Below are positions 11,789 to 41,300 of a stretch of DNA of 64,000 nt, in pieces. The notes below the pieces were generated by a model. The model made no database searches. It was not told where the DNA came from and saw nothing but the letters and a program-made list of their open reading frames with translations. Positions within the stretch are counted from its first letter, which is position 1. Each line of letters begins with the position of its first letter. The translations under genes and the position numbers were made by a program. The stretch comes from Sphingobacteriales bacterium (GTDB lineage: Bacteria > Bacteroidota > Bacteroidia > UKL13-3), in NCBI GenBank assembly GCA_021299635.1, contig JAJTFA010000001.1, positions 62,001-126,000 of the forward strand. Reading direction: 5' to 3'.

Positions 11789-11844
11789 ATGCATACTACT
11801 TTTTGCTTTTTATACTGCTTCTGATAACCAAAGATACAAAAGGT

Positions 11845-13044
11845 TTAACGGGTATTTAAAATTAAATTAAGGTTATTAATAATAATATCGCACGCTTGTG
11901 CAATTTCCTCACGGGTAATGATAAGGGGTGGCGCAATTCTGAGTTTATGGGTGGCAAATAAAAACCAATCGGCAATTAAACCATCTGATATACAGGAATC
12001 TATGAGTTTTTTATTCAGCTCAAAGCTCTCCAGTTCAGGTGCAAGCATGAGCCCTTTTCCACTAATTTGCCTGATAGCAGGGTGTTTTAGCAAATGCCTG
12101 AATAATAATTCTTTGTCTGCCACTTCAGCTATCCAGTTATGTGAAAGCAATTCTTCCAAACCAGCCAGCGCAGCCGCGCAAACCACCGGATGACCTCCAA
12201 AAGTAGTGATATGGCCTAGCATAGGTTGTTCTGCCAATTGCATCATCATTTCTTTGGAAGCAATGAATGCGCCTATTGGCATGCCAGCACCTAGTGCCTT
12301 GCCTAGCAGCAACACATCAGGTACCACTCCGCTGTGCTCAAAGGCAAACATTTTTCCGCTCCGGCCCATTCCTGATTGTATCTCATCAAAAATGAGTAAT
12401 GCGCCAGTACTGTTACATTTTGCACGAAGTGCCGATAAAAAATCAGGATCTGATACAATATATCCGCTTTCTCCTCTAATGACCTCAGCCACCACACAAG
12501 CTGTTCGTTGTGTTATACTATCTAGTTCGGCAGTCTGGTTGTGCTCAAGAAAACGGATATCAGGTAATAAGGGCCTGAAAGCATTTTTATAATATTCTTC
12601 ACTGTTCAGGCTAAGAGCTGCATGTGTGCTACCATGATAGGCCTGCTTAAATGCGATGATTTCCGTTCTGCCTGTAACCCGTTTGGCTAGTTTAAGCGCA
12701 CCATCGGTTGCCTCAGCACCTGAGTTAACAAAATACACGCAGTTTAATACCGATGGTAACAACGTTGTTAGCCTCTCTGCAAGTTTTACCTGTGGAGCCT
12801 GAACATATTCACCATATACCATCAGGTGCATGTACTGGTCAACCTGACTTTTAATAGCATCATTTACCCGCTTATTGCCATGCCCAAGGCTGCTTACGCT
12901 TATTCCCGAAATTAAATCGATGTAAGCTTTGCCACTTTTGTCATACAAATAAATGCCAGATGCTTTTTCAAACTCAAGTAATAATGGGAAATGTGTCGTT
13001 TGTGCCTGCCTGTTTAAAAATAGTTGCCGATTATTCAGATGCAT
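11845..13044 (-). CDS. Class III PLP-dependent aminotransferase
   Basis: Fold-type I aminotransferase of the acetylornithine/ornithine/4-aminobutyrate group, 399 residues. Visible features are FVNSGAEATDGALKLAKR (PLP phosphate region), the YHGSTHAALSL loop, the FDEIQSGMGRSGKMFAFEH Asp motif and the Schiff-base Lys in LLLGKALGAGMPIGAF. Substrate cannot be set from sequence: there is no arg or gab gene next to it. It opens upstream with a short AT-rich spacer before the divergent gene at 13158. Confidence 0.85.
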   Translation of the reverse strand: MHLNNRQLFLNRQAQTTHFPLLLEFEKASGIYLYDKSGKAYIDLISGISVSSLGHGNKRVNDAIKSQVDQYMHLMVYGEYVQAPQVKLAERLTTLLPSVLNCVYFVNSGAEATDGALKLAKRVTGRTEIIAFKQAYHGSTHAALSLNSEEYYKNAFRPLLPDIRFLEHNQTAELDSITQRTACVVAEVIRGESGYIVSDPDFLSALRAKCNSTGALLIFDEIQSGMGRSGKMFAFEHSGVVPDVLLLGKALGAGMPIGAFIASKEMMMQLAEQPMLGHITTFGGHPVVCAAALAGLEELLSHNWIAEVADKELLFRHLLKHPAIRQISGKGLMLAPELESFELNKKLIDSCISDGLIADWFLFATHKLRIAPPLIITREEIAQACDIIINNLNLILNTR

Positions 13045-23030: not shown

Positions 23031-23852
23031 TTGGAAGATTCAAGGCAACATAAGAGTGCAGAAGATTGGGTAAACCACCTGCTGGCTAAGGGTAAATATG
23101 CTTTTGCGCTGCACCAGTTCCGTGCGGATTTTCCCGAGCAGTCAGATACGGCCAATAAGTTTGCCTTGAAAAGGCTGGTAGATAAAGAGCAGATTATTTC
23201 CATCCACAAAGGGTATTACCTCATCATACCGCCCCAATACAGGTCAAAGGGAATCCTTCCCCCCACCTTGTTTTTAGATGCGTTTATGAAGGAATTGGAC
23301 CGGCCTTATTACCTGGCTTTGTTAAACGCAGCCGCTTATCATGGAGCATCGCACCAGCAGCCACAGGAGTTCTTTGTGGTTACAGGTTTTCCTGTGCTGC
23401 GGCCTATGCAGAAAAAAGGGCTGAAGCTGAACTACATCAGCAAAAAAGATATACCGGCAACACTATTAGACACCCGAAAAACCGAGGCCGGATACTTAAA
23501 AATTTCAAACCCTGCCCTAACAGCCACCGATCTGATACAATACGCCAAACGGGTGGGTGGCATCAACAGGGTGGCCACTGTTTTGGCTGAATTAGCCGAA
23601 AGTATTCAACCCAATACATTTGATGCCAATCTGCTGCAGCATGTTCCGGTAACTGCCTTGCAGCGTTTGGGGTATCTGCTGGATAAAGTATTTGACAACC
23701 AGCCGCTGGCCAACGCCTTGTACATGGCCTTGCAAAAGAACAATGCCCCTTTGTTTCGGATACCGCTAAAAGCCTCAGCATCGGCCAAAGGTTTTGCATC
23801 AGACGAAAGATGGAAAGTAATCGTAAACACTACAATAGAACTTGACGAATGA
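23031..23852 (+). CDS. abiEi: Type IV antitoxin/transcriptional repressor AbiEi
   Basis: 273 residues. An N-terminal winged helix (about 10-60, WVNHLLAKGKYAFALHQF) precedes the AbiEi C-terminal antitoxin domain (LYLA/NAAAYHGASHQQPQEFFVVTG, LTATDLIQYAKRVGG). In characterised systems AbiEi represses the operon and counters the AbiEii nucleotidyltransferase. The only plausible start is TTG at 23031, 12 bp after the palindrome; there is no ATG near it. The stop overlaps abiEii by 4 bp (ATGA), as usual for this pair. Confidence 0.87.
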   Translation: MEDSRQHKSAEDWVNHLLAKGKYAFALHQFRADFPEQSDTANKFALKRLVDKEQIISIHKGYYLIIPPQYRSKGILPPTLFLDAFMKELDRPYYLALLNAAAYHGASHQQPQEFFVVTGFPVLRPMQKKGLKLNYISKKDIPATLLDTRKTEAGYLKISNPALTATDLIQYAKRVGGINRVATVLAELAESIQPNTFDANLLQHVPVTALQRLGYLLDKVFDNQPLANALYMALQKNNAPLFRIPLKASASAKGFASDERWKVIVNTTIELDE

Positions 23853-24667
23853 TACCACAGGCATACATAACAGAATGGGCCAGTCAGGTGCCCTGGCAAA
23901 CCAACGAACAGGTAGAACAAGACCTGGTGATTTGCCGTGCCTTGGTAGAAATATTCTCCGATGAGTTTCTGGCAAAAAGCCTTGCTTTCAGGGGTGGTAC
24001 GGCCTTGCACAAGCTGTATTTAAATCCGCAACCACGCTACTCCGAGGATATTGATTTAGTGCAAATCACTGCAGAGCCATTCGGCCCTGTGGTGGACCGT
24101 TTACGAGAAAGGCTGGCCTTTTTAGGAGACCCTGCCCGGAAGCAGAAAGAAAACAATTTTACCCTGCAATACCGTTTTGAATCTGAGTTTCCTCCGGTGC
24201 AAAACCTCCGCCTCAAAGTAGAAACCAATTGCCGGGAACATTTCACCGTATTGGGGTATCAGCAATTTCCCTTTCAGGTAAATTCCTCATGGTTTACCGG
24301 TGCCTGCAACATCACCACCTACCAATTAGAAGAACTATTGGGAACAAAGCTCAGGGCCTTATACCAACGCAGAAAAGGCCGTGACTTATATGATATGTAC
24401 AAGGCACTGGTGCAAGTGCCCGGTATGGATAAAGATGCCCTGCTCCAATGCTATCATGCCTATATGGATTTTGTAGTAGATGAACCTCCAACGCAAAAAG
24501 TATATCTGCAAAACATGGAGGCCAAAATGCAGGACGATGAATTTATTGGTGACATAGCAGCCCTCATACGGCCAACAGAAAAATACGACCAGGCAACCGC
24601 TTTTGAATTAGTGCGAACGGAGTTGCTGGAGAAAATAGAAGAAATTAAAATAAAACAAACGAAGTAG
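23849..24667 (+). CDS. abiEii: Type IV toxin AbiEii, nucleotidyltransferase
   Basis: 272-residue nucleotidyltransferase-fold toxin. Motif I is FRGGTALHKLYL (about 47-58), followed by the metal-binding SEDIDL (65-70). Downstream are LRLKVETNC and the conserved TKLRALYQRRKGRDLYDM (about 166-183). AbiEii/MenT-type enzymes add nucleotides, in known cases to tRNA, and stop growth, giving abortive infection. It overlaps abiEi by 4 bp and the WYL gene by one base, so it heads the defence cassette. Confidence 0.9.
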   Translation: MIPQAYITEWASQVPWQTNEQVEQDLVICRALVEIFSDEFLAKSLAFRGGTALHKLYLNPQPRYSEDIDLVQITAEPFGPVVDRLRERLAFLGDPARKQKENNFTLQYRFESEFPPVQNLRLKVETNCREHFTVLGYQQFPFQVNSSWFTGACNITTYQLEELLGTKLRALYQRRKGRDLYDMYKALVQVPGMDKDALLQCYHAYMDFVVDEPPTQKVYLQNMEAKMQDDEFIGDIAALIRPTEKYDQATAFELVRTELLEKIEEIKIKQTK

Positions 24668-25677
24668 TGGCAACAAATAAACATGCTATAATAAGGTATC
24701 ATGCTTTAGACCAGTGTTTTAGCAACCCTGGTCGTAGGTATTTTATTGACGACCTTATTTCAGCTTGTAATGATGCATTATATGAATACACCGGAGTTGC
24801 AGAAGGGGTAAAAAGGAGGCAAATATTCGAGGATATTAAATTCATGGAAAGTGAGCAAGGCTGGTCCGTGCCGCTGGAAAGATTGAAGGATGGGAAGCAG
24901 GTTTATTACAGATATTCTGACAAATCATTTTCAATCAAGAATCAGGCTGTTAATGAAGCAGAAGCCAAACAATTAAAGGAAACCTTGTCCATCCTTACAA
25001 GATTCAAGGGAATGCCTCAATTTGAATGGATGGAAGAAATGCATGTTAGGCTTGAATCAATCTTCAATTTTAAAAGTAACACAAATGTTATAGTTGGCTT
25101 CGAGCAAAATCAATACTTGAAAGGTCTCAACCATTTTTCAGAGTTGTTCCATGCAATACAATATAAGAAAGTATTGTCCATTCAATACAGGGGTTTTAAA
25201 CAAACTAAACCTTCACAGGTAAACTTTCACCCTTATTACTTGAAACAGTATAATAGTCGCTGGTTTCTTTTTGGTTACAATGAGAAGTACGACAACATAA
25301 GCAATCTGGCTTTAGATCGTATTATTAATTTTAAACCAATCAATAAGAAATACCAGGATAACAAGACCATAAATTTTGAAGAGTATTTCGAAGATGTTGT
25401 TGGGGTAACTGTTTCTAATCGGGCTTCGGTTGATAAAGTTCATCTTGAAATAGCCCCTTCACTTTGGCCTTATATTGAAAGCAAGCCAATTCACGGATCA
25501 CAGCGTGTAGTCTCAAAGAAGGGTGGTGAAGTAGTAATTGAGCTTACAGTGCAGTTGAACTATGAATTAGTAACCACACTTTTTGCTTATGGCGAAGGGG
25601 TCAAAGTATTGCAACCAGACAGCTTGAAAAAGGAAATGATAACAAAGGCAAAAGCCTTAATAAACAAGTATTTATAA
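24667..25677 (+). CDS. WYL-domain transcriptional regulator (BrxR/CapW-like layout)
   Basis: 336 residues starting at GTG 24667, which overlaps the abiEii stop by one base; no in-frame ATG lies nearby. The N-terminal part (about 8-80) is a winged-helix region with RRYFIDDLISACNDAL. The WYL domain spans about 160-235 (VLSIQYRGFK, HPYYLKQYNSRWFLFGYN), and a WCX-like C-terminal region (about 255-335) follows. WYL regulators of this layout often precede BREX, CBASS and R-M loci as ligand-controlled repressors, so it may control the genes from 25739. A weak palindrome (ctatg...catag, 25679-25703) lies between them. Confidence 0.85.
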   Translation: MATNKHAIIRYHALDQCFSNPGRRYFIDDLISACNDALYEYTGVAEGVKRRQIFEDIKFMESEQGWSVPLERLKDGKQVYYRYSDKSFSIKNQAVNEAEAKQLKETLSILTRFKGMPQFEWMEEMHVRLESIFNFKSNTNVIVGFEQNQYLKGLNHFSELFHAIQYKKVLSIQYRGFKQTKPSQVNFHPYYLKQYNSRWFLFGYNEKYDNISNLALDRIINFKPINKKYQDNKTINFEEYFEDVVGVTVSNRASVDKVHLEIAPSLWPYIESKPIHGSQRVVSKKGGEVVIELTVQLNYELVTTLFAYGEGVKVLQPDSLKKEMITKAKALINKYL

Positions 25678-25738
25678 CCTATGCATATACACTGCACACA
25701 TAGTATTCATATTTGCTTCGTCAATCACAAAATAGTAT

Positions 25739-28198
25739 ATGATGAAGGAATTTAAGATAGAAGAGATATTGCCAGTTGAAGCATTGAAGTCCAAAATTTG
25801 GTCAATGTTTGATATTCTAAGAAGTGAACGAATCGCTTCAGAAGATTATCATGTGTTATTGTTCCTTCTGTCTGCATATAAAGACGGATTATTCAATACT
25901 GAGATTCTCAATGAGAACAGTAATTTGAATGAAAGGCTTGTACGTTGTTTGCATAACTCTGAATCAGAGTTAACAAATCAATACAATGCAATACTTGCAA
26001 CTTTTGAGCCGCTTGTGATGCGACTATCTGAAAACGGCACAAGGCATATAATAAGTGCATTGGGTGAATTGAACTTGGCAATATTGGATGAACACTTTGC
26101 TGATATTTTTGATGCTGTTTTATATCGTATCACACAATCTCAAGGCAGATTTGGCGGTGAGTTTATACAGCCTGTTGAGTTGACTCGCTTCATATGTGGC
26201 CTGGCCGAATTGCAACCCAATTCAAAGGTTTACAATCCTTTTGCCGGATTGGCTTCATTTGGTGTATACCTTGATCAAGGACAAGATTATTTTGGTCAGG
26301 AATTAAATCAAAAAACATGGGCTTTGGGGGCATTGCGTATAATGGCATATCAAAGACCCGGCACTTCAAGATATGTTTGTGACGACTCTATAAGTCATTG
26401 GCCGGCTACATCAGAAAAATTTGATTTTATTGTAGCCAATCCTCCTTACGGAATGCGTCTTGGCAACCAATACAGGGAGATAGAACCTGAGTTCCGCACT
26501 ATAGAACAGTTTCTGCTCGAAAAAGGGGTGCATTCTTTAAATGAAAAGGGCAAGCTGATTGCATTATTACCACAGGGAATTTTGTTTAGGGGTTTGCATG
26601 AGCAGCGTTTAAGAGAATTTCTCGTTGATGAGGATTTGATTGATACAATTATATCATTACCAGGGGGCTTGCTTTTAAATACAGGTATTCCATTAATAAT
26701 AATGGTATTGAATAAAAACAAGAAGATACCTGGCAAAGTTAGATTTGTAGATGCGAAGAAATTCGTTGATTCTAAGAGCCCGAGAGAAAGAGTGCTTAAT
26801 GATTATGGGTTGAATAGTTTTCTGTATGGTAGTAAAAATGATTCTGATATTCTCCGTCTTGTTTCTAACGATGAGATAAGAGCATTCGATTATAATCTTA
26901 GTGTCCCTCGTTATTTCCAAAAGCAGGTTGAGGGGGTGAAACTTGGTGAAATCATAGAGTTTGTTAGAGGCCAAAGAGTAAACTTGCCTCCAACAGGCAA
27001 GCTAATTCGTATTCGAGATTTAAAGGATGATAAAATTGATTTTCGTTTAGACGAAGCAACAATTGAAGATGTAGAACTGAGAAGGCCCGATATTCATCAG
27101 ATAACAGAATCATGCTTACTGTTAGCTGTTCGCTGGAAGACCTTAAAGCCCACATATTTCGAGTATAAAGGTGAAGCAATCTATCGAAGTCAGGATATAT
27201 TGTCTTTCAAAGTAAATGAGGCAATTGCAGATAAGGCATTTTTAATTAATGAGCTTCATGCTGATTATGTTCAGGAACAATTGGAGTCCTATCGTTTAGG
27301 GGCATCTGTAATGCCTTTTCTCCGAAAGGATGACCTGATGGAAGTTGTTATCAAACTGCCTTCTCTTCAGGAGCAAAGAGCGAAGGTTCAGGGTATATAT
27401 GAACTTTCCGATAAGATTAAGAGCCTGCAAGTTGAAAGGAATGCTTTGGCTCATGGTAAGTCTCTAAAGCAATTCAGTGAGTTTGCATCGCTGAAACACA
27501 CACTTGGCAGGCCAAGACAAAATATCCTGGATTGGTCAGATAATCTGCTTCATTTTTTAAATGAAAAACGGGAAGGTTTTGAAGCATTGAATAAAGCCTT
27601 TATTGAGTTTTATGATACTGACATAATCTCCGCTTTAAAGGAAATTAAGAGGGATGTTAACTTCATAACTGATGTTCTCGAAAAGGGCGAAAATGGGTTT
27701 GTTTTAAGTGAATATGAGACAAACACTATTCCACTCTCAGATATCAATAGCCTGATTAATGAGCTTTCTAACAATGGATTCAACTTTAAAATCAAGAAAT
27801 TGCCTTTAAAGTCGGAGAAGCTTAAAGACCGTGGCATTTCAGCAAACCGGATATTATTCAAAACACTTTTGGATAACATCTTAACGAATGCAAATAAATA
27901 TGCATTCAGTAAACGGGAGTCAGGAAATGAAGTGGTTGTGGAATTAACTGAAGTAGATGATATTCTCTCTATGGAGGTGAAAAACAACGGGAAGCCATTT
28001 CCCAAAAACTTCGATCGGGAAAAGTTTATTACAAAATATTCCACGGCTGATTCTGCTGCGGGTACTGGTTTAGGTGGCTACGACATACATCGCATTGCCA
28101 CGCATTTTAGTAATCCTGATTGGGAATTGTCATTAAATGAAGATCCCATCTACCCGGTAAAATTCAAGTTTCAATTTCCAATTAAATTAATGAATTGA
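25739..28198 (+). CDS. DNA N6-methyltransferase/specificity protein fused to a histidine-kinase core
   Basis: 819 residues with three modules. (1) A gamma-type adenine methyltransferase: GGEFIQP (about 139-145), motif I variant YNPFAGLASFG (165-175; Asn where HsdM has Asp), and catalytic NPPYG (234-238). (2) A type I specificity-like target-recognition half (about 400-548) with GEIIEFVRGQRVN and the closing LPSLQEQR. (3) A kinase core: H-box FASLKHTLGRP with H587, N-box LDNILTNANKY (711-721), G1 variant KNNGKPF (748-754; Asn where Asp is usual) and G2 GTGLGG (775-780). The next gene, read from ATG 28201, encodes a receiver protein. I infer a DNA-bound sensor kinase that may also methylate. 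No similar fusion is known to me. Methylation and phosphorylation are untested, and the altered motif I could mean DNA binding without catalysis. Confidence 0.85.
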   Translation: MMKEFKIEEILPVEALKSKIWSMFDILRSERIASEDYHVLLFLLSAYKDGLFNTEILNENSNLNERLVRCLHNSESELTNQYNAILATFEPLVMRLSENGTRHIISALGELNLAILDEHFADIFDAVLYRITQSQGRFGGEFIQPVELTRFICGLAELQPNSKVYNPFAGLASFGVYLDQGQDYFGQELNQKTWALGALRIMAYQRPGTSRYVCDDSISHWPATSEKFDFIVANPPYGMRLGNQYREIEPEFRTIEQFLLEKGVHSLNEKGKLIALLPQGILFRGLHEQRLREFLVDEDLIDTIISLPGGLLLNTGIPLIIMVLNKNKKIPGKVRFVDAKKFVDSKSPRERVLNDYGLNSFLYGSKNDSDILRLVSNDEIRAFDYNLSVPRYFQKQVEGVKLGEIIEFVRGQRVNLPPTGKLIRIRDLKDDKIDFRLDEATIEDVELRRPDIHQITESCLLLAVRWKTLKPTYFEYKGEAIYRSQDILSFKVNEAIADKAFLINELHADYVQEQLESYRLGASVMPFLRKDDLMEVVIKLPSLQEQRAKVQGIYELSDKIKSLQVERNALAHGKSLKQFSEFASLKHTLGRPRQNILDWSDNLLHFLNEKREGFEALNKAFIEFYDTDIISALKEIKRDVNFITDVLEKGENGFVLSEYETNTIPLSDINSLINELSNNGFNFKIKKLPLKSEKLKDRGISANRILFKTLLDNILTNANKYAFSKRESGNEVVVELTEVDDILSMEVKNNGKPFPKNFDREKFITKYSTADSAAGTGLGGYDIHRIATHFSNPDWELSLNEDPIYPVKFKFQFPIKLMN

Positions 28199-28200
28199 TT

Positions 28201-29382
28201 ATGGAAGATATACTCTACAATATCCTTTGGATTGATGACGAACATGAATCACTTGCAGGCACAAAAGGGCGTGCAAAGAGAAATGGCATTAATCTGATAC
28301 CTTTTAAATCGCTAAATAGCGGTATGTCTGAATTGGAAAACAATTATCCTTTTTATGACGGGGTATTATTAGATGCTAAGTTTTTTGAGAACGAAGACGA
28401 TGTGAAAGGCTCAGAGGATACCTATAATGTGCATCGGGCGAAGGAGCGATTATTACAGCTCAAAAAGAAATTTGAAGTATTCATTCTTACAGGTCAGGCG
28501 GAAGCATATGAGGATAAGACTTTCAAAAAAGCCTTCACTAAGGTTTACAAGAAAGGTAGTGATGACGAGATAGACCGTTTATTTGCCGATATTAAATTAG
28601 CTGCAGCAACCCAGGAGGACACTCAAATACGCCATGCATACAAACGGGTTTTTGATGTTTGTACAGAAAAGTATATTGGAGAATTGGCAGGTCAGGATGT
28701 ATTGAATCTCCTGAAGGTTAACGATGACTTAAACATCGACAATCACTTTAATGCTATCCGAAAAATCGTTGAGGATTTGTTTACAGCTTTCAGTAAGTAT
28801 CGTTTACTTCCGCTTGAATTTGTTACACCTGGTGTTGCGTTAAATGAGAGTAGCAAATTTTTAGCAGGTAAAGCCGCTGACGGTACTCCTTTCATTGAAA
28901 AGGGCTATCAGCATTCAGAAGAAACTCATTTGCCGTTGCTAATTGCTTCTTCTTTGAGAAGCATACTTTCTATAACGCAAGCAGGTTCTCACAGGTCTAA
29001 TATCGATTTGCATGTTAAAACCATCAAGACCCCATTCCTTTTTAGGAGTGTGCTATTTCAACTTTTAGATGTGCTTACTTGGTTTAAGCTATATGTAGAT
29101 TCAAACCCTAAGACAGAGAACTGGATAAGAATTGCCAATGTAGCTGAGTCTATACCTGAATCAGCTGAAGATTCCGTAATGGGCAAAGTGATAAATGTAA
29201 ACCAACAAAAGGGCTTTGCTTTTTTCAAGCCAGATGTTGTTGGTGATAATGTTTTTATACCTCCACACTTGGTAGCAAATAATTCATTAGAAGATCAAAT
29301 GCCTGTTCGTGTGGTGACTGAAGAATACATTGATAACAGAACGGGAGAAACTAAAACAAGAGTAAAACGAATTGTGAACTAA
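28201..29382 (+). CDS. Receiver-domain protein with C-terminal cold-shock domain
   Basis: 393 residues from ATG 28201. A TTG two codons earlier overlaps the upstream stop and is less likely. The N-terminus is a CheY-like receiver: ILWIDDE gives the acidic pair (D12, D13), DGVLLDAKFF the phospho-acceptor Asp (D58), FILTGQ the Thr (T97) and VYKKG the Lys (about K117). A helical middle region (about 140-320) has no motif I recognise. The end (about 326-372, GKVINVNQQKGFAFF and DNVFIPPHL) is a cold-shock domain with RNP1 and RNP2, predicted to bind single-stranded nucleic acid. Adjacent to the kinase-bearing methyltransferase, it is the obvious phosphorelay partner, with a nucleic-acid-binding output instead of the usual HTH. 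Confidence 0.85.
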   Translation: MEDILYNILWIDDEHESLAGTKGRAKRNGINLIPFKSLNSGMSELENNYPFYDGVLLDAKFFENEDDVKGSEDTYNVHRAKERLLQLKKKFEVFILTGQAEAYEDKTFKKAFTKVYKKGSDDEIDRLFADIKLAAATQEDTQIRHAYKRVFDVCTEKYIGELAGQDVLNLLKVNDDLNIDNHFNAIRKIVEDLFTAFSKYRLLPLEFVTPGVALNESSKFLAGKAADGTPFIEKGYQHSEETHLPLLIASSLRSILSITQAGSHRSNIDLHVKTIKTPFLFRSVLFQLLDVLTWFKLYVDSNPKTENWIRIANVAESIPESAEDSVMGKVINVNQQKGFAFFKPDVVGDNVFIPPHLVANNSLEDQMPVRVVTEEYIDNRTGETKTRVKRIVN

Positions 29383-29392: not shown

Positions 29393-30955
29393 ATGGCAAG
29401 AGAATTAGAAAGAGATGAACTGCACCGCACCATCTGGCAAATTGCAAACGATTTAAGAGGTAGTGTAGATGGCTGGGATTTTAAAACCTATGTATTGGGT
29501 ATGTTATTCTATCGGTTCATTTCAGAGAACCTGACCTCCTACATTAACAAGGAGGAACAACGTACCGGCCATAAGAACTTCAACTATGCCGATATTTCGG
29601 ATAAGGATGCTGAATTGGGCAGAGTGGATACGGTGAAAGAGAAAGGCTTTTACATTCTACCATCTGAGTTGTTTGTAAACGTTCGTAAAAAGGCGAAGAC
29701 AGATGAAAATCTGAATGAAACACTGAGCCGTGTTTTCAAAAATATTGAGCATTCAGCCAAAGGAACAGAAAGCGAAGGCGATCTGAAAGGCTTGTTCGAT
29801 GATATGGATGTGAACAGTAATAAACTGGGTGCAACCGTTACCAAGCGTAATGAAGCACTGGTTAAAATATTGGATGCAATAGGCGACTTGAAATTAGGCG
29901 ATTATCAGGACAATAGCATTGATGCCTTTGGCGATGCTTATGAGTTTCTGATGACCATGTATGCCAGTAATGCTGGAAAATCGGGCGGTGAATTTTTTAC
30001 CCCTCAGGAAGTTTCTGAACTATTGGCCGAAATAACGGTTGTGGGCAAAAATCAGGTAAATAAAGTATATGACCCTGCTTGTGGTTCAGGCTCACTGTTG
30101 TTGAAGTTTGCGAAAGTGCTTGGTAAAGAAAATGTACGACAGGGATTTTTTGGGCAGGAGGTAAATATTACTACCTACAACCTTTGCCGCATCAACATGT
30201 TTTTGCATGACATCAATTATGAAAAATTTGATATTGCACATGGCGATACACTAACAGACCCCAGGCATTGGGATGATGAACCATTTGATGCCATTGTTTC
30301 CAATCCGCCTTATTCCATTAAATGGGAGGGCGATGCCAATCCTTTGTTGATTAACGACCCCCGTTTTTCACCTGCTGGGGTATTAGCCCCCAAAAGCAAA
30401 GCCGACCTTGCCTTTACCCTGCACATGTTGCATTGGCTTTCCACCTCGGGTACTGCTGCTATTGTTGAGTTTCCCGGTGTGTTGTACCGGGGTGGTGCGG
30501 AGCAAAAAATACGCAAATACCTGATTGATAACAATTATGTAGATGCGGTGATACAACTGCCTCCCGACCTGTTTTTTGGAACTACTATTGGCACTTGCAT
30601 TATCGTATTGAAGAAAAGCAAGAAGGATAATGCTACACTGTTTATTGATGCATCAGCCGAGTTTGTACGTGGCGGTAACAAGAACAAACTGACCGATTCC
30701 AACCGCAAGAGAATCCTCAACGCCTATATTGAACGAAAGGACGAGGCTCATTTTGCGAAGCTGGTATTGAATAGCGACATTGCTGAAAACGATTACAATA
30801 TTGCCGTAAGTAGTTATGTGGAGCAGGAGAATACCACAGAGGAAGTGGACATAGAAAAGCTGAATGCCCATATTGCCGAGATAGTGATTAAGCAAAACAA
30901 GCTGCGTACTGCTATTGATGAAATAATTGCTGATTTGGAAGGAGGTAGCATATGA
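29393..30955 (+). CDS. hsdM: Type I restriction-modification methyltransferase subunit HsdM
   Basis: 520-residue adenine-N6 methyltransferase subunit. It has the HsdM N-terminal helical domain (about 8-150), GGEFFTP (198-204), SAM motif I YDPACGSGSLL (226-236), catalytic NPPYSIKW (304-311) and GVLYRGGAEQKIRKYL. All catalytic residues are intact, unlike the variant motif I of the upstream kinase fusion. It begins 10 bp after the receiver gene and overlaps hsdS by 4 bp, so R-M and phosphorelay genes are likely cotranscribed. Confidence 0.95.
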   Translation: MARELERDELHRTIWQIANDLRGSVDGWDFKTYVLGMLFYRFISENLTSYINKEEQRTGHKNFNYADISDKDAELGRVDTVKEKGFYILPSELFVNVRKKAKTDENLNETLSRVFKNIEHSAKGTESEGDLKGLFDDMDVNSNKLGATVTKRNEALVKILDAIGDLKLGDYQDNSIDAFGDAYEFLMTMYASNAGKSGGEFFTPQEVSELLAEITVVGKNQVNKVYDPACGSGSLLLKFAKVLGKENVRQGFFGQEVNITTYNLCRINMFLHDINYEKFDIAHGDTLTDPRHWDDEPFDAIVSNPPYSIKWEGDANPLLINDPRFSPAGVLAPKSKADLAFTLHMLHWLSTSGTAAIVEFPGVLYRGGAEQKIRKYLIDNNYVDAVIQLPPDLFFGTTIGTCIIVLKKSKKDNATLFIDASAEFVRGGNKNKLTDSNRKRILNAYIERKDEAHFAKLVLNSDIAENDYNIAVSSYVEQENTTEEVDIEKLNAHIAEIVIKQNKLRTAIDEIIADLEGGSI

Positions 30956-32187
30956 GTAGAATTGATGAATTGATACAAAAATTTTGCCCTGAGGGTGTGC
31001 CGAATAAATCTGTTTGGGAAGTAACAATTTGGGACAAGAAATTTAATGGCATTGAAAAATCAATGCAGCCCAAAGTCATTAGCTATCCTTATGTGTTAGC
31101 AAGTAAGTTAAAAGAATTAGAACGAATGCAGGGCAACGTATGCTTGCTTTCAACAGGAAATTATATTGGTTGGACAACTGAAGAGCTTGCAGGAAAACAT
31201 TTATGTGAAGGTGAAGTTGTTGCAATCCCTTGGGGTGGACAAGCAAACGTTAAATACTACAAGGGTAAATTTGTGACAGCAGATAATAGGATAGCTACCT
31301 CAAAGGACACTAAAATACTCTTGAATAAGTTTTTGTACTACCTATTCTTAATAAATAATGATTTAATTGAAAGTTTCTATAGAGGTTCAGGTATAAAGCA
31401 TCCAAATATGAAGTCGGTGCTGATGATGAAAATACCCGTACCACCTCTTGAAGTTCAAGAGGAAATAGTCAAAATCCTTGACTTGTTCACTGAATTGGAA
31501 GCTGAATTGGAAGCTGAATTGGAAGCTAGGAAAACGCAATATACGCATTACAGAGATGCTTTAATGAGTTTTGAAGGCAAAGAGGTTGAATGGAAAACGT
31601 TGGGGGAATTAGGTGATTTTACAAGGGGGAAGCGTTTCGTAAAAACCGATATTCTTTCTGAGGGTGTGCCATGTATTCATTATGGTGAGATGTACACACA
31701 CTATAAAATATGGGCAAAAGAGGCCAAATCATTTTTAGCTCCTGAATTAGCTGCAAAACTTCGTGTGGCAAAAAAAGGAGATGTGGTGATTGTTGCGGCT
31801 GGTGAAACAATTGAGGATATTGGGCAAGGAGTTGCCTGGCATGGCAATGATGATGTGGTTATTCATGATGCATGTTTTTCATTCAGTCATAACATGCATC
31901 CCAACTATGTATCGCATTTTACGCAAACGGATATTTTCCATTCTCAGATAAAGAAATACATCTCTTCAGGAAAAATTTCCTCTATTAATGCGGCAGGTTT
32001 AAGCAAAGCCAAAATACCTGTTCCTTCTATGGAAGAGCAAATACGCATTGCTTCAATTTTGGATAAATTCCATGTTTTGATAAATGATATTTCTGTAGGA
32101 ATACCGGCAGAAATTGAAGGCCGCAGAAAGCAATACGAGTATTATCGCAACCGATTGTTGACATTTAAAGAAATAGCCAATGGATAA
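30952..32187 (+). CDS. hsdS: Type I restriction-modification specificity subunit HsdS
   Basis: 411 residues with two target-recognition domains. The first half ends with MKIPVPPLEVQEEIVKIL and the second with KAKIPVPSMEEQIRIASIL, the repeated closing motif of HsdS halves. Between them a helical spacer contains three identical ELEA units encoded by a perfect 12-bp tandem repeat (31492-31527). HsdS sets the bipartite DNA target of the HsdM2S and HsdR2M2S complexes. It overlaps hsdM by 4 bp and hsdR by 8 bp. Confidence 0.93.
   Translation: MSRIDELIQKFCPEGVPNKSVWEVTIWDKKFNGIEKSMQPKVISYPYVLASKLKELERMQGNVCLLSTGNYIGWTTEELAGKHLCEGEVVAIPWGGQANVKYYKGKFVTADNRIATSKDTKILLNKFLYYLFLINNDLIESFYRGSGIKHPNMKSVLMMKIPVPPLEVQEEIVKILDLFTELEAELEAELEARKTQYTHYRDALMSFEGKEVEWKTLGELGDFTRGKRFVKTDILSEGVPCIHYGEMYTHYKIWAKEAKSFLAPELAAKLRVAKKGDVVIVAAGETIEDIGQGVAWHGNDDVVIHDACFSFSHNMHPNYVSHFTQTDIFHSQIKKYISSGKISSINAAGLSKAKIPVPSMEEQIRIASILDKFHVLINDISVGIPAEIEGRRKQYEYYRNRLLTFKEIANG
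31492..31527 (+). repeat. In-frame 12-bp tandem repeat (three copies) in the hsdS spacer
   Basis: The unit gaattggaagct (Glu-Leu-Glu-Ala) occurs three times without mismatch, in the central helix between the two recognition domains. In EcoR124I/EcoR124II and related enzymes, two versus three copies of a four-residue repeat (TAEL) at this place change the spacer length of the recognised DNA by one base pair. Copy-number change by slippage could do the same here. Confidence 0.85.
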
Positions 32188-35100
32188 ATACTATATAGTT
32201 GCTGAAAATCCGGAAAGTACCGTTGTAGCGGAGTATCAGACTCCCTACATACGAGAAACGGCCTACCAAACAGAAGACCAGTTGGAAAAGGCATTTATCC
32301 AATTGCTGCAAGGTCAGGCTTATGATTATTTAACCATTACCAGTGAAGCAGCACTTACCAATAATCTTCGCTTGCAATTACAGAAGCTGAACAACTATAT
32401 CTTCAGTGATAAAGAGTGGGATCATTTTTTTAAAAGCAAGATTGCAAACCCAAATAGCGGCATTGAAGAAAAAACATCTTTGATACAGGAAGACCATATT
32501 CAAATCCTGGATTGCGATGATGGAACCAAAAAGAATATTTACCTGCTGGATAAAACGAATATCCATAACAATCAGTTGCAGGTCATCAATCAATATGAAG
32601 TAGCAGATGGGCAGCGACCAAACCGATATGATGTTACCATTTTGGTAAATGGTTTGCCGTTGGTACATATTGAGCTAAAGAAACGGGGTGTAGACATTAA
32701 AGAAGCCTTCAACCAGATTAACCGATATAACAGGGAATCATTCTGGAGTGGCTCAGGGTTGTTTGAGTATGTACAGTTGTTCGTTATATCCAACGGAACT
32801 TATACCAAATATTACAGCAACACCACCCGTTTTTCGCATATTAAAGAGCAAACACAAAGAGCCGCTGCCAATAAAAAACGTACCAGTAACAGCTTTGAAT
32901 TTACTTCATGGTGGGCAGACGCCAATAACAGACCAATTACCGACCTCATGGATTTTGGTCGCACTTTTTTTGCCAAGCATACGCTGTTGAATATCCTGTG
33001 TAAATACTGTGTATTTATAAGTGACAAACTGTTGTTGGCTATGCGTCCTTACCAGATTGTGGCTACAGAACGGATTTTAGGACGAATCAACGTTGCCAAT
33101 AACTATAAAAGCTATGGTAGTGTGGATGCAGGTGGTTATATATGGCATACTACAGGTAGCGGCAAAACATTGACTTCGTTTAAAACGGCACAATTAGCCA
33201 GTAAACTGCCATTTATAAATAAGGTGCTGTTTGTGGTAGACAGGAAAGACCTGGACTATCAAACCATGAAGGAATACGATAAGTTTGAAAAAGGAGCTGC
33301 TAACAGCAATACCAATACTTCCATTTTAAAGAAGCAACTAAGCGACCCTAAGGCAAACATCATCATTACTACCATTCAGAAACTTTCCATTCTGATAAAG
33401 AAAGAAAAGAACCATCTGGCGTTTAATCAGCCCATTGTTATCATATTCGATGAATGCCATCGTTCACAGTTTGGTGATATGCACAAGGCAATCACCAAAG
33501 CCTTTAAAAAATACTTTCTGTTCGGCTTTACCGGCACACCCATATTTGCTATTAATGCAAGCAGCAGCAACAAACCCGATTTAAAAACCACAGAACAGGC
33601 TTTTGGTCAAAAGCTGCACACTTATACCATTGTAGATGCTATCAATGATAAGAATGTGCTGCCATTTCGTATTGACTATATACGAACGATGAAAGAGCAG
33701 GAAGAAATTAAGGATGAAAAAGTTTGGGATATAGACAGAGAAAAGGCGTTGGCAGCCCCGCAACGTGTAAGCAATGTTGTAAACTACATTTTGGAGCATT
33801 TTGACCAGAAGACCAAGCGAAACAGTAAGCCTTACAGCTTTACTTCCTTAAAGAACATTTACGAAGTGGTTTCTGCAAAGGACCGTAACAAAATTGAAGA
33901 AGTAAAACAGAAAATCAGGCTTACAGGCTTCAATTCAATTTTTGCAGTGAGTTCCATCGACTTTGCCAAATTGTATTACAATGAGTTTAAAACGCAACAA
34001 AGCAGTTTGCCCGAATTGCAGCGTTTGAAAGTGGCCACTATTTTCAGCTTTGGTGTAAACGATGATGATGAAGATGGGCTGCCTGATGAGAACTCAGAAG
34101 GTACAGATGGCCTTAGTGTATCGGATAGAGATTTTCTGGAAAAAGCAATCAGCGATTACAACCAGATTTTCAAAACCAATTACGACACATCAACCGAAAA
34201 ATTCCAGAACTACTATAAAGATGTATCCCTGCGAATGAAGAACAGAGAAATTGATTTACTCATTGTAGTAAATATGTTTCTCACGGGTTTTGATGCTACT
34301 ACGCTCAATACACTTTGGGTAGATAAAAACCTTCGATTACACGGTTTGCTGCAGGCGTATTCCAGAACCAACCGCATTTTAAATTCGGTAAAGACGTTTG
34401 GAAACATTGTTTGCTTTAGAAACTTAGAGAAGGCAACCAATGAAAGCATCGCATTGTTTGGCGATAAAGAAGCAGGTGGAATTGTATTGCTAAAAACATT
34501 TGATGAATATTATAATGGCTATAAGGATGGTGAAAAAACCTATCCTGGATATGTTTCACTCATTAACGAACTCACTGCCAAATTTCCGGTGGGTGAACAG
34601 ATAATAGGAGAGCAAAATCAAAAAGCCTTTATCCGTTTGTATGGTTCCATTCTAAAAGCAAAAAACATACTCACCACTTTTGATGAATTTGCTGGAAGGG
34701 AAATACTGAGTGAAAGAGATGTACAGGATTACCATAGCATGTACATTAATCTTTACCATGAGTTCCGAAACAGAAATACGGGTGATGCAGAAAATGTGAA
34801 TGATGATATTGTGTTTGAAATGGAGTTGATAAAGCAAGTAGAGATCAACATCGACTACATTTTAGAACTTATCAGAAAATATCATGAAGGTCACCTAAGG
34901 GATAAGGAGATAATCATCAGTATCAACAAGGCAATTGATTCCAGTGTAGAATTGCGGAACAAAAAAGACCTTATTGAAAAGTTCATTCAATCACTTACAC
35001 CGGGCTCAAAGGTTACAGATGATTGGGAGAGTTTTGTTGAACAAAAAAAGCTGGAAGAATTAGATCAAATTATTGTTGAAGAAGAGCTTGATAAAGAAGA

Positions 35101-35296
35101 GACCTACAAGTTTATCCACAATGCTTTTCGGGATGGATATGTACAAACTACAGGTACTGGATTAGCAAAGATTCTTCCACCGGTTTCGAGGTTTACACCT
35201 ACTGGCGAAAGAACCCAAAAAAGAGAATCTGTTATTGAGAAAATTAAGGCATTCTTCAACAGGTTCTGGGATATTTCAGGTGGTATGTTGGAATAA
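32180..35296 (+). CDS. hsdR: Type I restriction endonuclease/translocase subunit HsdR
   Basis: 1038 residues. An N-terminal PD-(D/E)XK nuclease domain has D151 in NRYDVTILVNG and E165-L-K167 in HIELKKRG. An SF2 translocase follows, with Walker A TTGSGKT (324-330), DECH (424-427), and GFTGTPIF (about 449-456), and a C-terminal helical region for binding HsdM/S. All expected catalytic residues are present, so it should be active in ATP-dependent restriction. It overlaps hsdS by 8 bp; the next gene starts 52 bp later. Confidence 0.95.
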   Translation: MDKYYIVAENPESTVVAEYQTPYIRETAYQTEDQLEKAFIQLLQGQAYDYLTITSEAALTNNLRLQLQKLNNYIFSDKEWDHFFKSKIANPNSGIEEKTSLIQEDHIQILDCDDGTKKNIYLLDKTNIHNNQLQVINQYEVADGQRPNRYDVTILVNGLPLVHIELKKRGVDIKEAFNQINRYNRESFWSGSGLFEYVQLFVISNGTYTKYYSNTTRFSHIKEQTQRAAANKKRTSNSFEFTSWWADANNRPITDLMDFGRTFFAKHTLLNILCKYCVFISDKLLLAMRPYQIVATERILGRINVANNYKSYGSVDAGGYIWHTTGSGKTLTSFKTAQLASKLPFINKVLFVVDRKDLDYQTMKEYDKFEKGAANSNTNTSILKKQLSDPKANIIITTIQKLSILIKKEKNHLAFNQPIVIIFDECHRSQFGDMHKAITKAFKKYFLFGFTGTPIFAINASSSNKPDLKTTEQAFGQKLHTYTIVDAINDKNVLPFRIDYIRTMKEQEEIKDEKVWDIDREKALAAPQRVSNVVNYILEHFDQKTKRNSKPYSFTSLKNIYEVVSAKDRNKIEEVKQKIRLTGFNSIFAVSSIDFAKLYYNEFKTQQSSLPELQRLKVATIFSFGVNDDDEDGLPDENSEGTDGLSVSDRDFLEKAISDYNQIFKTNYDTSTEKFQNYYKDVSLRMKNREIDLLIVVNMFLTGFDATTLNTLWVDKNLRLHGLLQAYSRTNRILNSVKTFGNIVCFRNLEKATNESIALFGDKEAGGIVLLKTFDEYYNGYKDGEKTYPGYVSLINELTAKFPVGEQIIGEQNQKAFIRLYGSILKAKNILTTFDEFAGREILSERDVQDYHSMYINLYHEFRNRNTGDAENVNDDIVFEMELIKQVEINIDYILELIRKYHEGHLRDKEIIISINKAIDSSVELRNKKDLIEKFIQSLTPGSKVTDDWESFVEQKKLEELDQIIVEEELDKEETYKFIHNAFRDGYVQTTGTGLAKILPPVSRFTPTGERTQKRESVIEKIKAFFNRFWDISGGMLE

Positions 35297-36275: not shown

Positions 36276-38336
36276 ATGCAAGAACAAAACCTATTCTTCA
36301 ACATTCTCACTTTTCACTGGCCAAAGCAGCCGGTTACTTTTTATTTTCACGAAGAAGAACAGGATAAGTTTCCACGTATTCACAGGTCATTATTCCCGAA
36401 ACAAATAGCCGACATTTTCCCGCAGGTAGCTGCAAATCCGGCCAAAGAGTTTATATCATGTGCCTTCACAGGTGAAACCGAGGGCTTCACACCGTTGGAT
36501 ATAGATTTCAAAACGGACAATCCTGACCTCATCAAGCGTTTTTACAACAAGCAGATTGGTTACTACTTCCGTAAAGTCAGGGAGAAGATTGTAAAGGTCG
36601 GTTTCATCAAAGAGAATCAAATTTGGTTGCCAGTACCCAAGGAATCAAATGCACAATACAGCGTGTATGATAAATATACCCTCAAGGTCCAGCTTTGCAC
36701 TGTATCAGGTTTTCCTGAGATTCACCTGTCTTATGATGGCAAGTCAAGAGTGAGCAAAAAAAGCATTGCCGTACTGATACAAGACATTGCCCCCGAAAAC
36801 TTTAATTGGGTACTGTATGAGAACCAGCTTTGGAAGTATGAAACGCTGGACAAGAAAGAAGATATTGATTACAATAAGGCTTACCCTGTTTTAGGGAGGA
36901 GATTAAAAACTGCTATGGGCTTTCCTGCGGAAGCCCCGCCACGTCACAACAGGTACACCGAATATCTCAGGAACATCGAAAAATTCTATAAGGACTATTT
37001 AGACACCGATTCGTTCCGGGAGTTTATACCACTGCACACCACAGGATTATTGCCCGTAAACACTACAAGGTTAAACTACACTTCTCCCGATAGCAACAAG
37101 TTGGCATTTGGCACGGGTCAGGATATTGTGCCGTTTAACGGAGTGAAAACCTATGGTCCATTCAAAAAAGCCCCATACAATAAGGTGCATTTGTTTTTTA
37201 TCGTCCATCGTGATGATATAGAAACGGCCAAAAGATTGAAAACCTATTTCCAGTCAGGGCTGAAATTCTTCAAAGGCTTATTCGATTTCTCCAAAGTGCT
37301 GTTTCACACCAGTGAAGGATTCAGCATAGCCTTTACTGACAAAGAGAATCCCGTAGAGGAGATTGAACAGAAGTTATCTCAGCGTACCATCGACCCCGAT
37401 GTGAAATACATTGCCATTTACATTACCCCATACAACAAGTACGAAGCCGACCTGCAGAAGAGAGAAATTTATTACAAAGTGAAAGAACTGTTACTGAAGC
37501 GAAGAATTACTTCTCAATGCATAGAGGCAAATAAGGTAATGGAGCAAGGCGAAAACTATGTGTACAGCTTGCCAAACATTGCTGTCGCAATATTGGCAAA
37601 GTTAGACGGCATTCCGTGGCGTTTGAATACGCCAATCAGGAATGAATTGATTGTAGGCGTAGGAGCTTTTAAACACATAGCAACAGATGTACAATACATT
37701 GGCTCAGCCTTCAGTTTCAACAACACAGGCGGATTCAATCGGTTTGAGTACTTCATGAAGCATGAAGTGGATGTATTGGCCGGTTCTATTTCCAGGGCCA
37801 TCAGAGATTATGCAACAGTCAACAACAGCCCCGACAGGCTAATCATTCATTTCTACAAAACCATGAATGAGAAGGAGCTTGAACCCATTGAAAAGGCTTT
37901 GGCTGATTTAGGGCTGGATATACCGGTTTTTGTAGTCACCATCAACAAAACAGAATCCGAAGACATCGTTTTATTTGACCGTGGTTGGGCTGATTTAATG
38001 CCCATGAGTGGCACGTATGTGCATATAGGAGAGAACAGGTATTTGCTTTGCAACAATACCCGTTACTCAGCCGCTGGCTTCAATAAGAATGATGGCTTCC
38101 CCTTCCCGATCAAATTAAAAATTGACTGCACCGACAAAACACAATTAACAGAAACCAAAGTGGTAAAAGAACTCATAGACCAGGTATATCAATTCAGCCG
38201 CATGTACTGGAAATCAGTGCGGCAGCAAAACCTTCCGGTAACCATCAAATACCCCGAAATGGTGGCCCAGATAGCCCCCCATTTTGATGGCGATGAAATA
38301 CCACAGTACGGCAAGGATAATCTTTGGTTTTTGTAA
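36276..38336 (+). CDS. Prokaryotic Argonaute-like protein with degraded PIWI active site
   Basis: 686 residues. The C-terminal half looks like MID-PIWI: YKVKELLLKRRITSQCI (about 400-416) resembles the MID 5'-guide pocket, and NIAVAILAKLDGIPWRL (434-450) is a classic PIWI segment. The catalytic tetrad is not preserved: ELIVGVGAF (457-465) has Gly463 where active Argonautes have the first Asp, and RLIIHFYKT (521-529) lacks the next Asp. The N-terminal half (about 1-300) may hold an N domain and a reduced or absent PAZ. It should bind guide and target but not cut. Neighbours are the DUF5655 nuclease-like gene (15 bp upstream) and the GHKL ATPase gene (27 bp downstream), which are potential effectors. 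Confidence 0.8.
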   Translation: MQEQNLFFNILTFHWPKQPVTFYFHEEEQDKFPRIHRSLFPKQIADIFPQVAANPAKEFISCAFTGETEGFTPLDIDFKTDNPDLIKRFYNKQIGYYFRKVREKIVKVGFIKENQIWLPVPKESNAQYSVYDKYTLKVQLCTVSGFPEIHLSYDGKSRVSKKSIAVLIQDIAPENFNWVLYENQLWKYETLDKKEDIDYNKAYPVLGRRLKTAMGFPAEAPPRHNRYTEYLRNIEKFYKDYLDTDSFREFIPLHTTGLLPVNTTRLNYTSPDSNKLAFGTGQDIVPFNGVKTYGPFKKAPYNKVHLFFIVHRDDIETAKRLKTYFQSGLKFFKGLFDFSKVLFHTSEGFSIAFTDKENPVEEIEQKLSQRTIDPDVKYIAIYITPYNKYEADLQKREIYYKVKELLLKRRITSQCIEANKVMEQGENYVYSLPNIAVAILAKLDGIPWRLNTPIRNELIVGVGAFKHIATDVQYIGSAFSFNNTGGFNRFEYFMKHEVDVLAGSISRAIRDYATVNNSPDRLIIHFYKTMNEKELEPIEKALADLGLDIPVFVVTINKTESEDIVLFDRGWADLMPMSGTYVHIGENRYLLCNNTRYSAAGFNKNDGFPFPIKLKIDCTDKTQLTETKVVKELIDQVYQFSRMYWKSVRQQNLPVTIKYPEMVAQIAPHFDGDEIPQYGKDNLWFL

Positions 38337-38363
38337 TTAGTAAAATCTAAAGCTGAATTTGAA

Positions 38364-41300
38364 ATGAATGCTAAGCAGAGAATAGAAGCCTTCTTAAAGG
38401 AAAACAATATAAAGGGCAACCGATTTATAGGTCGCTGCATATTAACAGAAAGGGGTAATCTCATCCTTGGCGATATAATATCCAAAGATGGTCACGTACA
38501 ACTTCTTAAAGCAAATGGTGATAGAATTACCATTAATGCAACTAATTCCACATTTGAGTTTTTAGAAGGTAAGTTTTACGAGTTCAGCGTTTATATACCT
38601 GCACCTAATGCCAATGGAAAAAGTATTGTGGTGCTTGATCTTCAATTTAACTTACCATCAGAGTCTGACATCAATTCAAAGGATATTATTATAAAAGCAA
38701 AAAGGGAGTCACAAAGCAAGCTTTCTCTTGCGGATTTTTTATTGAGAAGCAATTTGTCAAATAATCGCTTTTATGGCAGATGTGTTCAGTCAGAAAGTGG
38801 GCAAAAAATGCTAAATGATATAATATCAAAAAATGAGGGTAATTTATTGTTGCGGGATGATGGAGATAGGTTATCAATTTACATTAGCAATATAGATTTC
38901 GATTTTGAAGCTGACCGATATTACGAGTTCTCAATAAGAGTATTTCATAAGGGAGTTAATAGGGACGAGATTATTTCAATAGAAATGAACGAAAATCCCC
39001 CCGTTAAGTTAGATATTAATCCATACAAAGAAATAACCCGGTTAAGATATGAAAGGTTAGATAATCCAGAAGCAAATCGAATGATTGCACATTTGATGCG
39101 TGAAATCGGGAAGGGCCTCTATTCGTCAAAACAACGAATGATATTTGAATTACTTCAAAATGCTGATGATACTCCTGCAGGTGATATAGTAAGTTTTCAT
39201 ATAGATGCATATAACGATTATTTTTTAGTGATGCATAACGGAGTTCCGTTTAATCAGGATGATGTTGAGGCAATTACAAGTGCAGCAGAAAGTACAAAGC
39301 GGAACGACAAAAAGAAGACAGGCTATAAAGGGATTGGCTTTAAATCTGTATTTACGGATAGTGAAGAAGTAATTATTAAATCTGGAGGTTTTCTTTTCAC
39401 TTTTAAAAGGAATCATACCGCTTACAATAATTTTGACACATTCTACTTTGGCAAGAAACGGTATCAGGAATATCCTGCTTTGTTAGAAGAAGACAAATTG
39501 AAATATGCAAAGCAGCGTAGAACCTTTAATGGTAATACTGACATACCCTGGCAGTTAATACCAATATGGTTAGAGGAACTGCCACGTGAACTCAACGAAT
39601 CAAGACTTGCAAAGTATAATAACAATGTTGGGTTTGCCATTAAGTTTGGAAGAGAGAAAGTTCAGGATTACTTGGAAGCGGTTAACTACTTTGTGGAAAA
39701 ACCTCATTTCATGCTTTTCCTCAGGCATGTAAATCTCTTCAAATCTTTTAAGAATGCGGTTACTGTTCGTAAGTCAGGCGAAGAAATTGTGACAATTGAA
39801 AAGATTACACTCAATGGCGAAAATCTTAAATTAATTTATTACAAGCATTTAATTGATGATATTCCTGTAAACGACAATGCCCTTTCAGAAGAAGGAATCG
39901 CCATTTACAAAAAGGAAAAAGTGAATGAATATGGGGAAGTATCACACTACTTCAGTTCGGATGAAGAAGGTAAACAGGTAATTGAATCTATACCTCCGAA
40001 ATTAGCTGCATTTGAAATGACATCAATTTCTTTCGCTGCTCCCATTATAAATGGAAATATTTCATGTGAACCGGCATATCTAACGGGCAAAGCTTTTTCA
40101 AGTTTCTATACTTACCTTCCCATGAAGGAAACACGGATTCAGCTGCCGTTCTTAGTCAATGCTGACTTTGTGCCATCCTCAAACAGAGAAGAACTTCAAG
40201 GGGATAATCAATGGAATGAGTATGTTATTTCTAAAATTGCATTTATCCATATTCGCTTTCTTCGTCAAATAGCAAATCAATCAATCGAATCTGGTCGTTT
40301 TGAGCCTGAGTACCTTTCCCTGCTTTTGAGTAAATTGTTGGAAGATGATTCCTCTATACAATTACTCATTGGGAAGTATAATGACGTATATGCTCAGTCT
40401 TTACAGGTTGTCCCCTTTGTAATATCAGATAAAGAAACCCTAATTACAATTTCGGAGGTAATTCTTGATGTTACTGGCATCTCTGATGTACTCGGAAGCA
40501 ATTTATTTTATCAGATTGCCGCAACGGAAAAGCATCTTCCCCATACTTCAATCAATGCAAAATATTTGAATTATGCTTATCTGCAAATTGATAAATATTC
40601 GTCCATCAATCTTATTGCTGATTTATGTGAAGAAGACAATTTGGAAGTACTAAAGCAGGAGTTATTAGCTTTAGAAAGCAAAAGGTATTTAAGCTTTGTA
40701 AAGTGGTTAAATGAATTTTGCCAACTGTATGTTGAGGATTCCGAATGGGTATTATCCTTCCCTTTTATTGTAGTTGATGATATATGTTTATCATTCAATG
40801 ACATACTCACAGTGGACGATATTTTTATCCGTTCTTATCGTACCAGACCGATTGAAAATTTATTAGCTAAGTTGGGTTTTAAGTTATCATCTTTTTACGT
40901 TGATGACTACAAATATTTGTTCGAGAAAAGTTGGCATATAGACTCTTATTTACACAAGGATATTAAGTTGTACGAACGATTAGCATCAAATGCTAACCTT
41001 TCACTACTTAGTCCAACAGAAAAGGCAAGTCTCATCTCATTTATTGAATCTTTAAAAGGCATTGGAGAAGTTAAGTTTGCCAATACCTTACCTCTATTCA
41101 ATACCCAGGCTGAACAAGTTGGTTTAAAGCCTCTTGCAAGTCTTATTACCAATAAGTGTGAAGGGCTTCCGAAATGGCTATTGAAATTTGTAATAAATGA
41201 GGAGGAAGAAAATGCATTATCTCAGGAATTTAGAAATTACCTGATTGATGAATCTAATATTCTTGAACTGCTTTTTTGTAATTCAGTATTGTTTGAAGAA

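Follow-up and report, generated by a model that had tools for sequence, protein, structure and literature searches.

A histidine kinase core fused to a type I methyltransferase-specificity module within conserved defence cassettes of Bacteroidota

One question raised by this locus is whether the DNA recognition module of a type I restriction enzyme can serve as the input of a histidine kinase and, in that case, what the protein would sense and control. The gene was analysed within a window of 64,000 nucleotides (the whole stretch of DNA under study). A sequence-only reading had described one 819-residue frame with methyltransferase, specificity and kinase motifs, and had proposed that the DNA-binding half is the sensor and phosphorylation its output.

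Architecture and distribution of the fusion kinase

The frame and all of the motifs claimed were found at the residues given. The methylase motifs are NPFAGLASFG (166-175) and NPPYG (234-238), the HsdS-like motif is LPSLQEQR (540-547), and the kinase core contains H587, the N-box residues N713 and N717, a G1-type NNGKP (749-753) and GTGLGG (775-780). The gene and the parts of its product are the following:

25739..28198, + strand: sensor kinase, 819 aa, single open frame
Kinase residues 7-134: HsdM-like N-terminal helical region
Kinase residues 135-390: N6-MTase domain
Kinase residues 395-540: HsdS-like TRD
Kinase residues 541-575: HsdS-type coiled-coil linker
Kinase residues 576-650: DHp, with H587
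Kinase residues 660-817: HATPase

Profile searches and structure prediction had been proposed as checks of this architecture. In Pfam, the 819-aa protein matched N6_Mtase (residues 118-396, E=3.5e-42), HATPase_c (residues 705-788, E=1.4e-6, exceeding the curated cut-off) and, marginally, Methylase_S (residues 474-564, E=5e-4, slightly below its cut-off). The same families were matched by 57/57, 54/57 and 38/57 members of the kinase family, respectively. When a profile of these 57 members was compared with solved structures, it matched HsdM (EcoR124II M, 1.9e-50), HsdS (5ybb, 6.6e-15) and histidine kinases (HK853, 2c2a/3dge, about 5e-8), and the three types of match fell on consecutive stretches of the chain. 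With the C-terminal profile alone, HK853 chain residue 25 aligned at profile position 39; H587 is position 43 of this profile and, if the first columns are ungapped, corresponds to HK853 chain residue 29, which we take to be His260 of the 232-489 construct.

The AlphaFold2 model of the kinase (mean pLDDT 86) contained an HsdM-like domain and a TRD, followed by DHp-like helices and an ATPase domain. One 30-residue helix of the HsdS type (543-572) precedes the two DHp helices (576-609 and 614-648), after which comes the alpha/beta ATPase domain; confidence is lowest in the DHp (pLDDT about 45-80). The best Foldseek matches of this model were the type I M/S structures 3lkd, 7eew and 7vru, and the N6_Mtase fold was matched at 3e-24. 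Pfam, the solved-structure profile matches and the model thus confirmed that a methyltransferase/specificity module lies N-terminal to a true H-N-G kinase core.

Apart from its unusual architecture, nothing suggests that the frame is a sequencing or assembly error, or that an RM gene and a kinase gene came together by chance. The family sample comprised 62 non-identical kinase/regulator pairs, nearly all of them from Bacteroidota, and a full-length fusion was present in 59, with the same domain order, in independent genomes and on a plasmid. Such an artefact, which the sequence-only reading had named as grounds for withdrawing its proposal, is therefore ruled out, its probability being negligible. 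In the genomes of 97 relatives six further full-length fusions were found; separate queries, one using the fusion and one using the regulator, retrieved the same seven genomes, where the two genes are adjacent, and the regulator query gave no matches among the 97 outside those seven. Since searches from two different proteins converge on seven genomes, the kinase-regulator pairing is not a product of how the loci were collected. Scanning 84,980 species genomes with the regulator yielded 66 loci, again nearly all in Bacteroidota, and in nearly all of them the gene immediately upstream was the fusion. When 396 genomes were drawn evenly from the phylum, 11 had the regulator at E < 1e-25, the window's own genome among them. 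The fusion was also found on three near-identical Myroides plasmids; no relatives of the kinase or the regulator were found in viral contigs.

Three members of the family depart from the common layout. In L057 (505-3048), a kinase core of the same family is preceded by an unrelated, unrecognised N-terminus of ~590 aa that replaces the M-TRD half, a natural sensor swap. The 1681-aa kinase of L093 (4960-10005) carries an extra N-terminal half of ~880 aa ahead of M-TRD-kinase, which by eye resembles a second degenerate M-TRD unit. The most divergent kinase, from a rumen MAG (L100, 397-3189), has no N6_Mtase match in Pfam and, alone among the 62, a G1 box with the canonical Asp (FTDNG).

The partner regulator and the conservation of the pair

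A phosphotransfer partner had also been postulated, and a receiver gene was indeed found next door:

28195..29382, + strand: cognate response regulator, 395 aa, overlapping the kinase stop; receiver (D14/D15/D60/T99/K120), helical output domain (R189, H266) and S1/CSD-like tail

The postulated partner can thus be refined to a receiver-helical-CSD protein. Pfam has no family for its receiver, which is not seen as Response_reg, or for its helical domain. The receiver fold was confirmed by a model and by Foldseek, and D14, D15, D60, T/S99 and K120 were present in all 62 receivers. In almost all loci, the kinase and regulator genes either overlap or lie nearly end to end. In the helical domain, R189 and H266 are invariant and E193 is found in 59/62. 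The arrangement R189xxxE193 ... H266 resembles DUF4145, and the domain was compared with HEPN proteins using Pfam, PDB profiles and hhalign against DUF4145 and Abi_C. There was no Pfam or PDB profile match, and hhalign gave E=0.058, against 5e-4 between two HEPN-type families. The domain matched no family and appears to be novel; a HEPN-type RNase is a tentative candidate for its activity. The tail matched Pfam S1CSD-TOTE-2 (2.1e-6). A CSD/S1-like tail is present in most regulators and is dispensable, because eight shorter ones (L055, L078, L079, L081, L095, L097, L098 and L099) end after the helical domain, near residue 300.

The kinase residues are as strictly kept. H587 (in an HxxxxP context), N717, G751, G777 and G779 each occur in 62/62 kinases, and N713 in 61/62. 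The Asn residues in motif I and in G1 had been considered unusual, such that either activity might be altered. Both turned out to be family traits (motif I Asn in 57/62, G1 Asn in 61/62), and two solved kinases, ThkA and VanS, have Asn at the same G1 place. Being near-invariant and present in solved kinases, the G1 Asn is no argument against kinase activity, and its loss by this route is unsupported. The change from Asp to Asn could also be read in favour of a protein that is not a kinase, namely a GHKL ATPase working as a mechanical DNA clamp of the paraMORC kind with the receiver merely as an adaptor; GHKL/receiver-like pairs that are linked to RM and akin to paraMORC were proposed earlier (PMC8011034). 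However, H587 and its HxxxxP context are co-conserved with an intact receiver site in 62/62 pairs, the best solved matches are true histidine kinases, of which two share the G1 Asn, and neither HEF_HK nor Response_reg_2 was among the matches listed, so that a clamp is very improbable. The case that the pair acts like a two-component system is strong.

Altered activity is more likely in the methylase, judging from its motifs. Motif IV (NPP[YFW]) is retained in 31/62 fusions (36/62 if D or S is allowed), compared with 50/50 neighbouring HsdM proteins, and motif I, which is DPxxG in neighbouring HsdM, reads NPFAG (NPFAGxAS) in the fusions; the HsdM hallmark pair of DPxxG in motif I and NPP[YF] in motif IV is not conserved across the 62 fusions. 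On a tree built without the motif IV columns, the state of this motif changed at least 14-16 times, which argues that its relaxation has been recurrent. Residues of the SAM site are mostly retained (E188 of motif II in 57/62, D/N216 of motif III in 60/62). In the window's own copy NPPY, the motif II Glu and the motif III Asp are all intact and, since NPPY is retained, this copy may still methylate DNA.

Identity was calculated for close pairs (65-95% overall). The TRD of the fusion was 77% identical, as conserved as the rest of the protein, whereas HsdS of the same operons averaged 25% and HsdM 52%. The fastest-evolving part of the kinase was the HsdM-type N-terminal helical region (46%). HsdS-like hypervariability was not seen in the fusion TRD among close pairs, which suggests that the fusion has a constant target. 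By this measure, restriction cassettes are swapped around a stable signalling cassette whose sensor TRD does not diversify. Because the TRD is stable while the restriction cassette is exchanged, the sensor is unlikely to mirror what the resident enzyme recognises.

These results bear on the main rival explanation for the protein, in which the fusion is bifunctional: it would be active as an N6-adenine methyltransferase, and the kinase domain of the same protein would either regulate this methylation or report it. NPP[YFW] in the window copy and 30 others and the largely conserved SAM-site residues are in its favour, but motif IV has been lost many times with kinase and regulator still intact, motif I lacks the DPxxG of neighbouring HsdM, and the TRD has not diversified in the manner of an RM enzyme. 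We consider bifunctionality unlikely.

The main rival for the signal, which has a somewhat better though still low probability, is an integrated decoy or guard. The M-TRD half would mimic the resident type I enzyme, and phage anti-restriction factors would trip the kinase with no need for a DNA target sequence; DNA mimics of the Ocr/ArdA kind or SAM depletion would be the triggers. A decoy would fit the relaxation of motif IV combined with the retention of motifs I (NPFAG), II (E188) and III (D/N216), the constancy of the sensor beside widely differing RM cassettes and the fast evolution of the HsdM-type helical region, as expected of a contested surface. Nevertheless, a conserved and retained TRD would be superfluous for a pure SAM sensor, and the anti-restriction ligand is conjectural.

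Gene neighbourhood and a palindrome beside the WYL gene

The neighbours of the pair in the window are as follows:

24667..25677, + strand: WYL/WCX regulator of the MATNKHA..RY..LD.CFSN type
25682..25696, + strand: copy of TGCA-N7-TGCA, TGCATATACACTGCA, between the WYL and kinase genes, a few bases past the WYL stop codon
29393..30955, + strand: HsdM of a type I RM system, with canonical motifs
30952..32187, + strand: HsdS of the type I RM system
32180..35296, + strand: HsdR of the type I RM system, EcoR124-type

Between 23031 and 36260, the genes for AbiEi, AbiEii, WYL, kinase, regulator, HsdM, HsdS, HsdR and PDC-S18 all run in one direction, and most of them overlap or are separated by short gaps. 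The usual order in the family is WYL, kinase, regulator, HsdM, HsdS, (cargo) and HsdR, with the WYL gene directly upstream of the kinase in 46/62 loci. In several loci where no adjacent WYL gene was counted, one apparently lies in the same stretch, judged from coordinates only, for example upstream of RM or Druantia genes. In the DNA downstream of the 62 pairs, where many contigs are short, HsdM was found in 48 loci, HsdS in 43 and HsdR in 35; a few loci had no RM gene within the DNA examined. Druantia III genes occur in L061 (DruH/DruE) and L083 (DruE3), GmrSD in L048, L049 and L090, and a TmtA-like gene in L055. As judged from gene content, the WYL gene forms part of the cassette, which travels with type I RM systems and sometimes with Druantia III or GmrSD.

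The AbiEi/AbiEii pair (23031-24667) abuts the WYL gene with no gap and, being absent from other loci, is neighbouring cargo and not part of the cassette. The defence island continues immediately beyond the RM block and PDC-S18, where the genes at 36276-45881 encode a Piwi/pAgo protein of 686 aa, a TmtA-like protein of 1910 aa and a helicase of superfamily 1. In L083 the gene at 11226-12518, which follows the regulator and precedes HsdM, encodes a DUF2130 protein; L092 (426 aa) and several marine Flavobacteriia loci have a gene of similar length at this place, DUF2130 having been checked in L083.

The palindrome was evaluated by position. In the window alone it occurs at chance frequency (3 found, 2.9 expected), so that the evidence lies in its position across loci and not in the number of copies. 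An exact TGCA-N7-TGCA follows the WYL stop in 35/46 loci with an adjacent WYL gene, and a looser scan (TGCG/CGCA, spacer 6-8) found it in 41/46. It lies upstream of the kinase in 9/16 of the remaining loci and just past the regulator stop in 10/62; all loci together hold 86 exact sites in 1.22 Mb, mostly at those short positions. In genomes without the kinase (L154-L156), it adjoins the genes of WYL relatives that are 45-49% identical, and it is mostly missing beside the genes of more distant WYL proteins, of 38% identity or lower, in kinase-free genomes. The palindrome is also present in L057, whose kinase has no MTase or TRD. Since the site accompanies WYL relatives in the absence of the kinase and L057 has it as well, the WYL protein is its likeliest binder, and TGCA-N7-TGCA is probably a WYL operator. 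Recognition by the sensor itself has some appeal, as split palindromes with a spacer of about 7 nt suit half-HsdS dimers, but was rejected as first choice on the same two grounds.

At the level of sequence, the architecture, the conservation of the catalytic residues of kinase and receiver, the strict pairing, the association with RM and other defence genes, the putative operator motif, the relaxed methylase motif IV and the non-variable TRD are shown.

Proposed mechanism and comparison with known systems

We consider it moderately probable that the locus encodes a soluble two-component pair within a defence cassette, in which a repurposed M.S module provides the input and the output deploys or tunes the co-encoded defence. 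That the sensor is a repurposed type I M.S module is supported strongly as regards architecture and moderately as regards function. Taking the DNA-binding half as sensor and phosphorylation as output, as first proposed, appears the best reading, because the methyltransferase/specificity module precedes a real kinase core and a cognate receiver is encoded next door. From this arrangement we infer phosphotransfer, DNA as the signal, the direction of control and the nature of the output.

On the input side, the DHp dimer of the kinase would bring two type I-like M-TRD modules together, just as half-HsdS subunits associate. The transmitter helix would be the HsdS coiled coil, which continues directly into the DHp helices. 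When the modules clamp onto a constant DNA determinant, or let go of it, whether or not SAM takes part, the DHp would be twisted and autophosphorylation of H587 switched; from H587 the phosphate would pass to D60 of the neighbouring receiver. The helical domain of the regulator, with the nucleic-acid-binding CSD-like tail in most members, would then serve as effector or adaptor. The WYL protein, probably by binding TGCA-N7-TGCA, would add a transcriptional layer ahead of the kinase-regulator pair and, in some loci, of the restriction genes. Overall, a phospho-signal would deploy or tune the restriction or Druantia-type defence encoded alongside, which would then not be constitutive.

Restriction systems are usually pictured as constitutive. 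These cassettes suggest that some bacteria wire them to a phospho-signal; if so, DNA, or an attack on DNA modification, would be sensed and relayed by phosphotransfer to the restriction arsenal, and a cytoplasmic DNA-reading input would be added to the histidine-kinase repertoire. With sensor, partner, phospho-sites and operator defined, signal-controlled restriction is directly testable. More tentatively, this may be the first histidine kinase with a restriction-type DNA-reading input, a pseudo-MTase/TRD dimer that scans DNA, reads its sequence or methylation state (or an anti-restriction attack) and controls portable anti-phage cassettes by a phospho-signal through a new class of response-regulator output.

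The fusion system is real, conserved, coherent and, within the literature searched, undescribed: no description was found in the open-access literature and family libraries covered. PADLOC assigned the kinase only generic MTase_I/Specificity_I and distant mad2/mad5 (MADS) matches and gave none for the regulator, neither protein being recognised as part of a listed system. The likeness to MADS is confined to this distant MTase/specificity resemblance, no other MADS gene being recognised here.

The closest published idea is that of the Response_reg_2/HEF_HK pairs (PF19192/PF19191; PMC8011034), where a receiver-like gene likewise adjoins a GHKL/DHp-like gene amid restriction-modification genes. 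Those pairs accompany mainly type II RM, C5 methylases and Vsr, whereas the present one has a sensor of the HsdM-HsdS kind and is accompanied by a WYL gene and by type I RM. Neither family matched the window proteins (E up to 1), was among the first 25 of 48 families listed for 57 regulators (E up to 1) or was among the families for 57 kinases (E up to 0.01).

The best full-model Foldseek matches of the regulator were PorX-type response regulators of Bacteroidota, in which a receiver is also followed by a helical region; here there is no PglZ domain, the helical domain is different and the protein ends in a CSD-like tail. BrxR-type WYL regulators, in which a wHTH-WYL-WCX gene with a conserved palindromic site heads a defence operon, share the WYL layout; here it is coupled to a two-component pair, and the putative operator comes from sequence comparison only. 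Two-component logic in phage defence is known from Detocs, whose sensor architecture differs from that of the present kinase.

As in HsdM/HsdS and single-chain M-S enzymes, MTase fold, TRD and coiled-coil linker occur in one chain, but here a kinase core is fused to them, motif I is altered, motif IV is relaxed, the TRD is non-variable and there is no R subunit of its own. With soluble cytoplasmic kinases of the HK853 type the protein shares the H-, N- and G-boxes, a HisKA-like DHp and an adjacent receiver; it differs from them in having Asn instead of Asp in G1 and, as its sensor, a restriction-type DNA recognition module.
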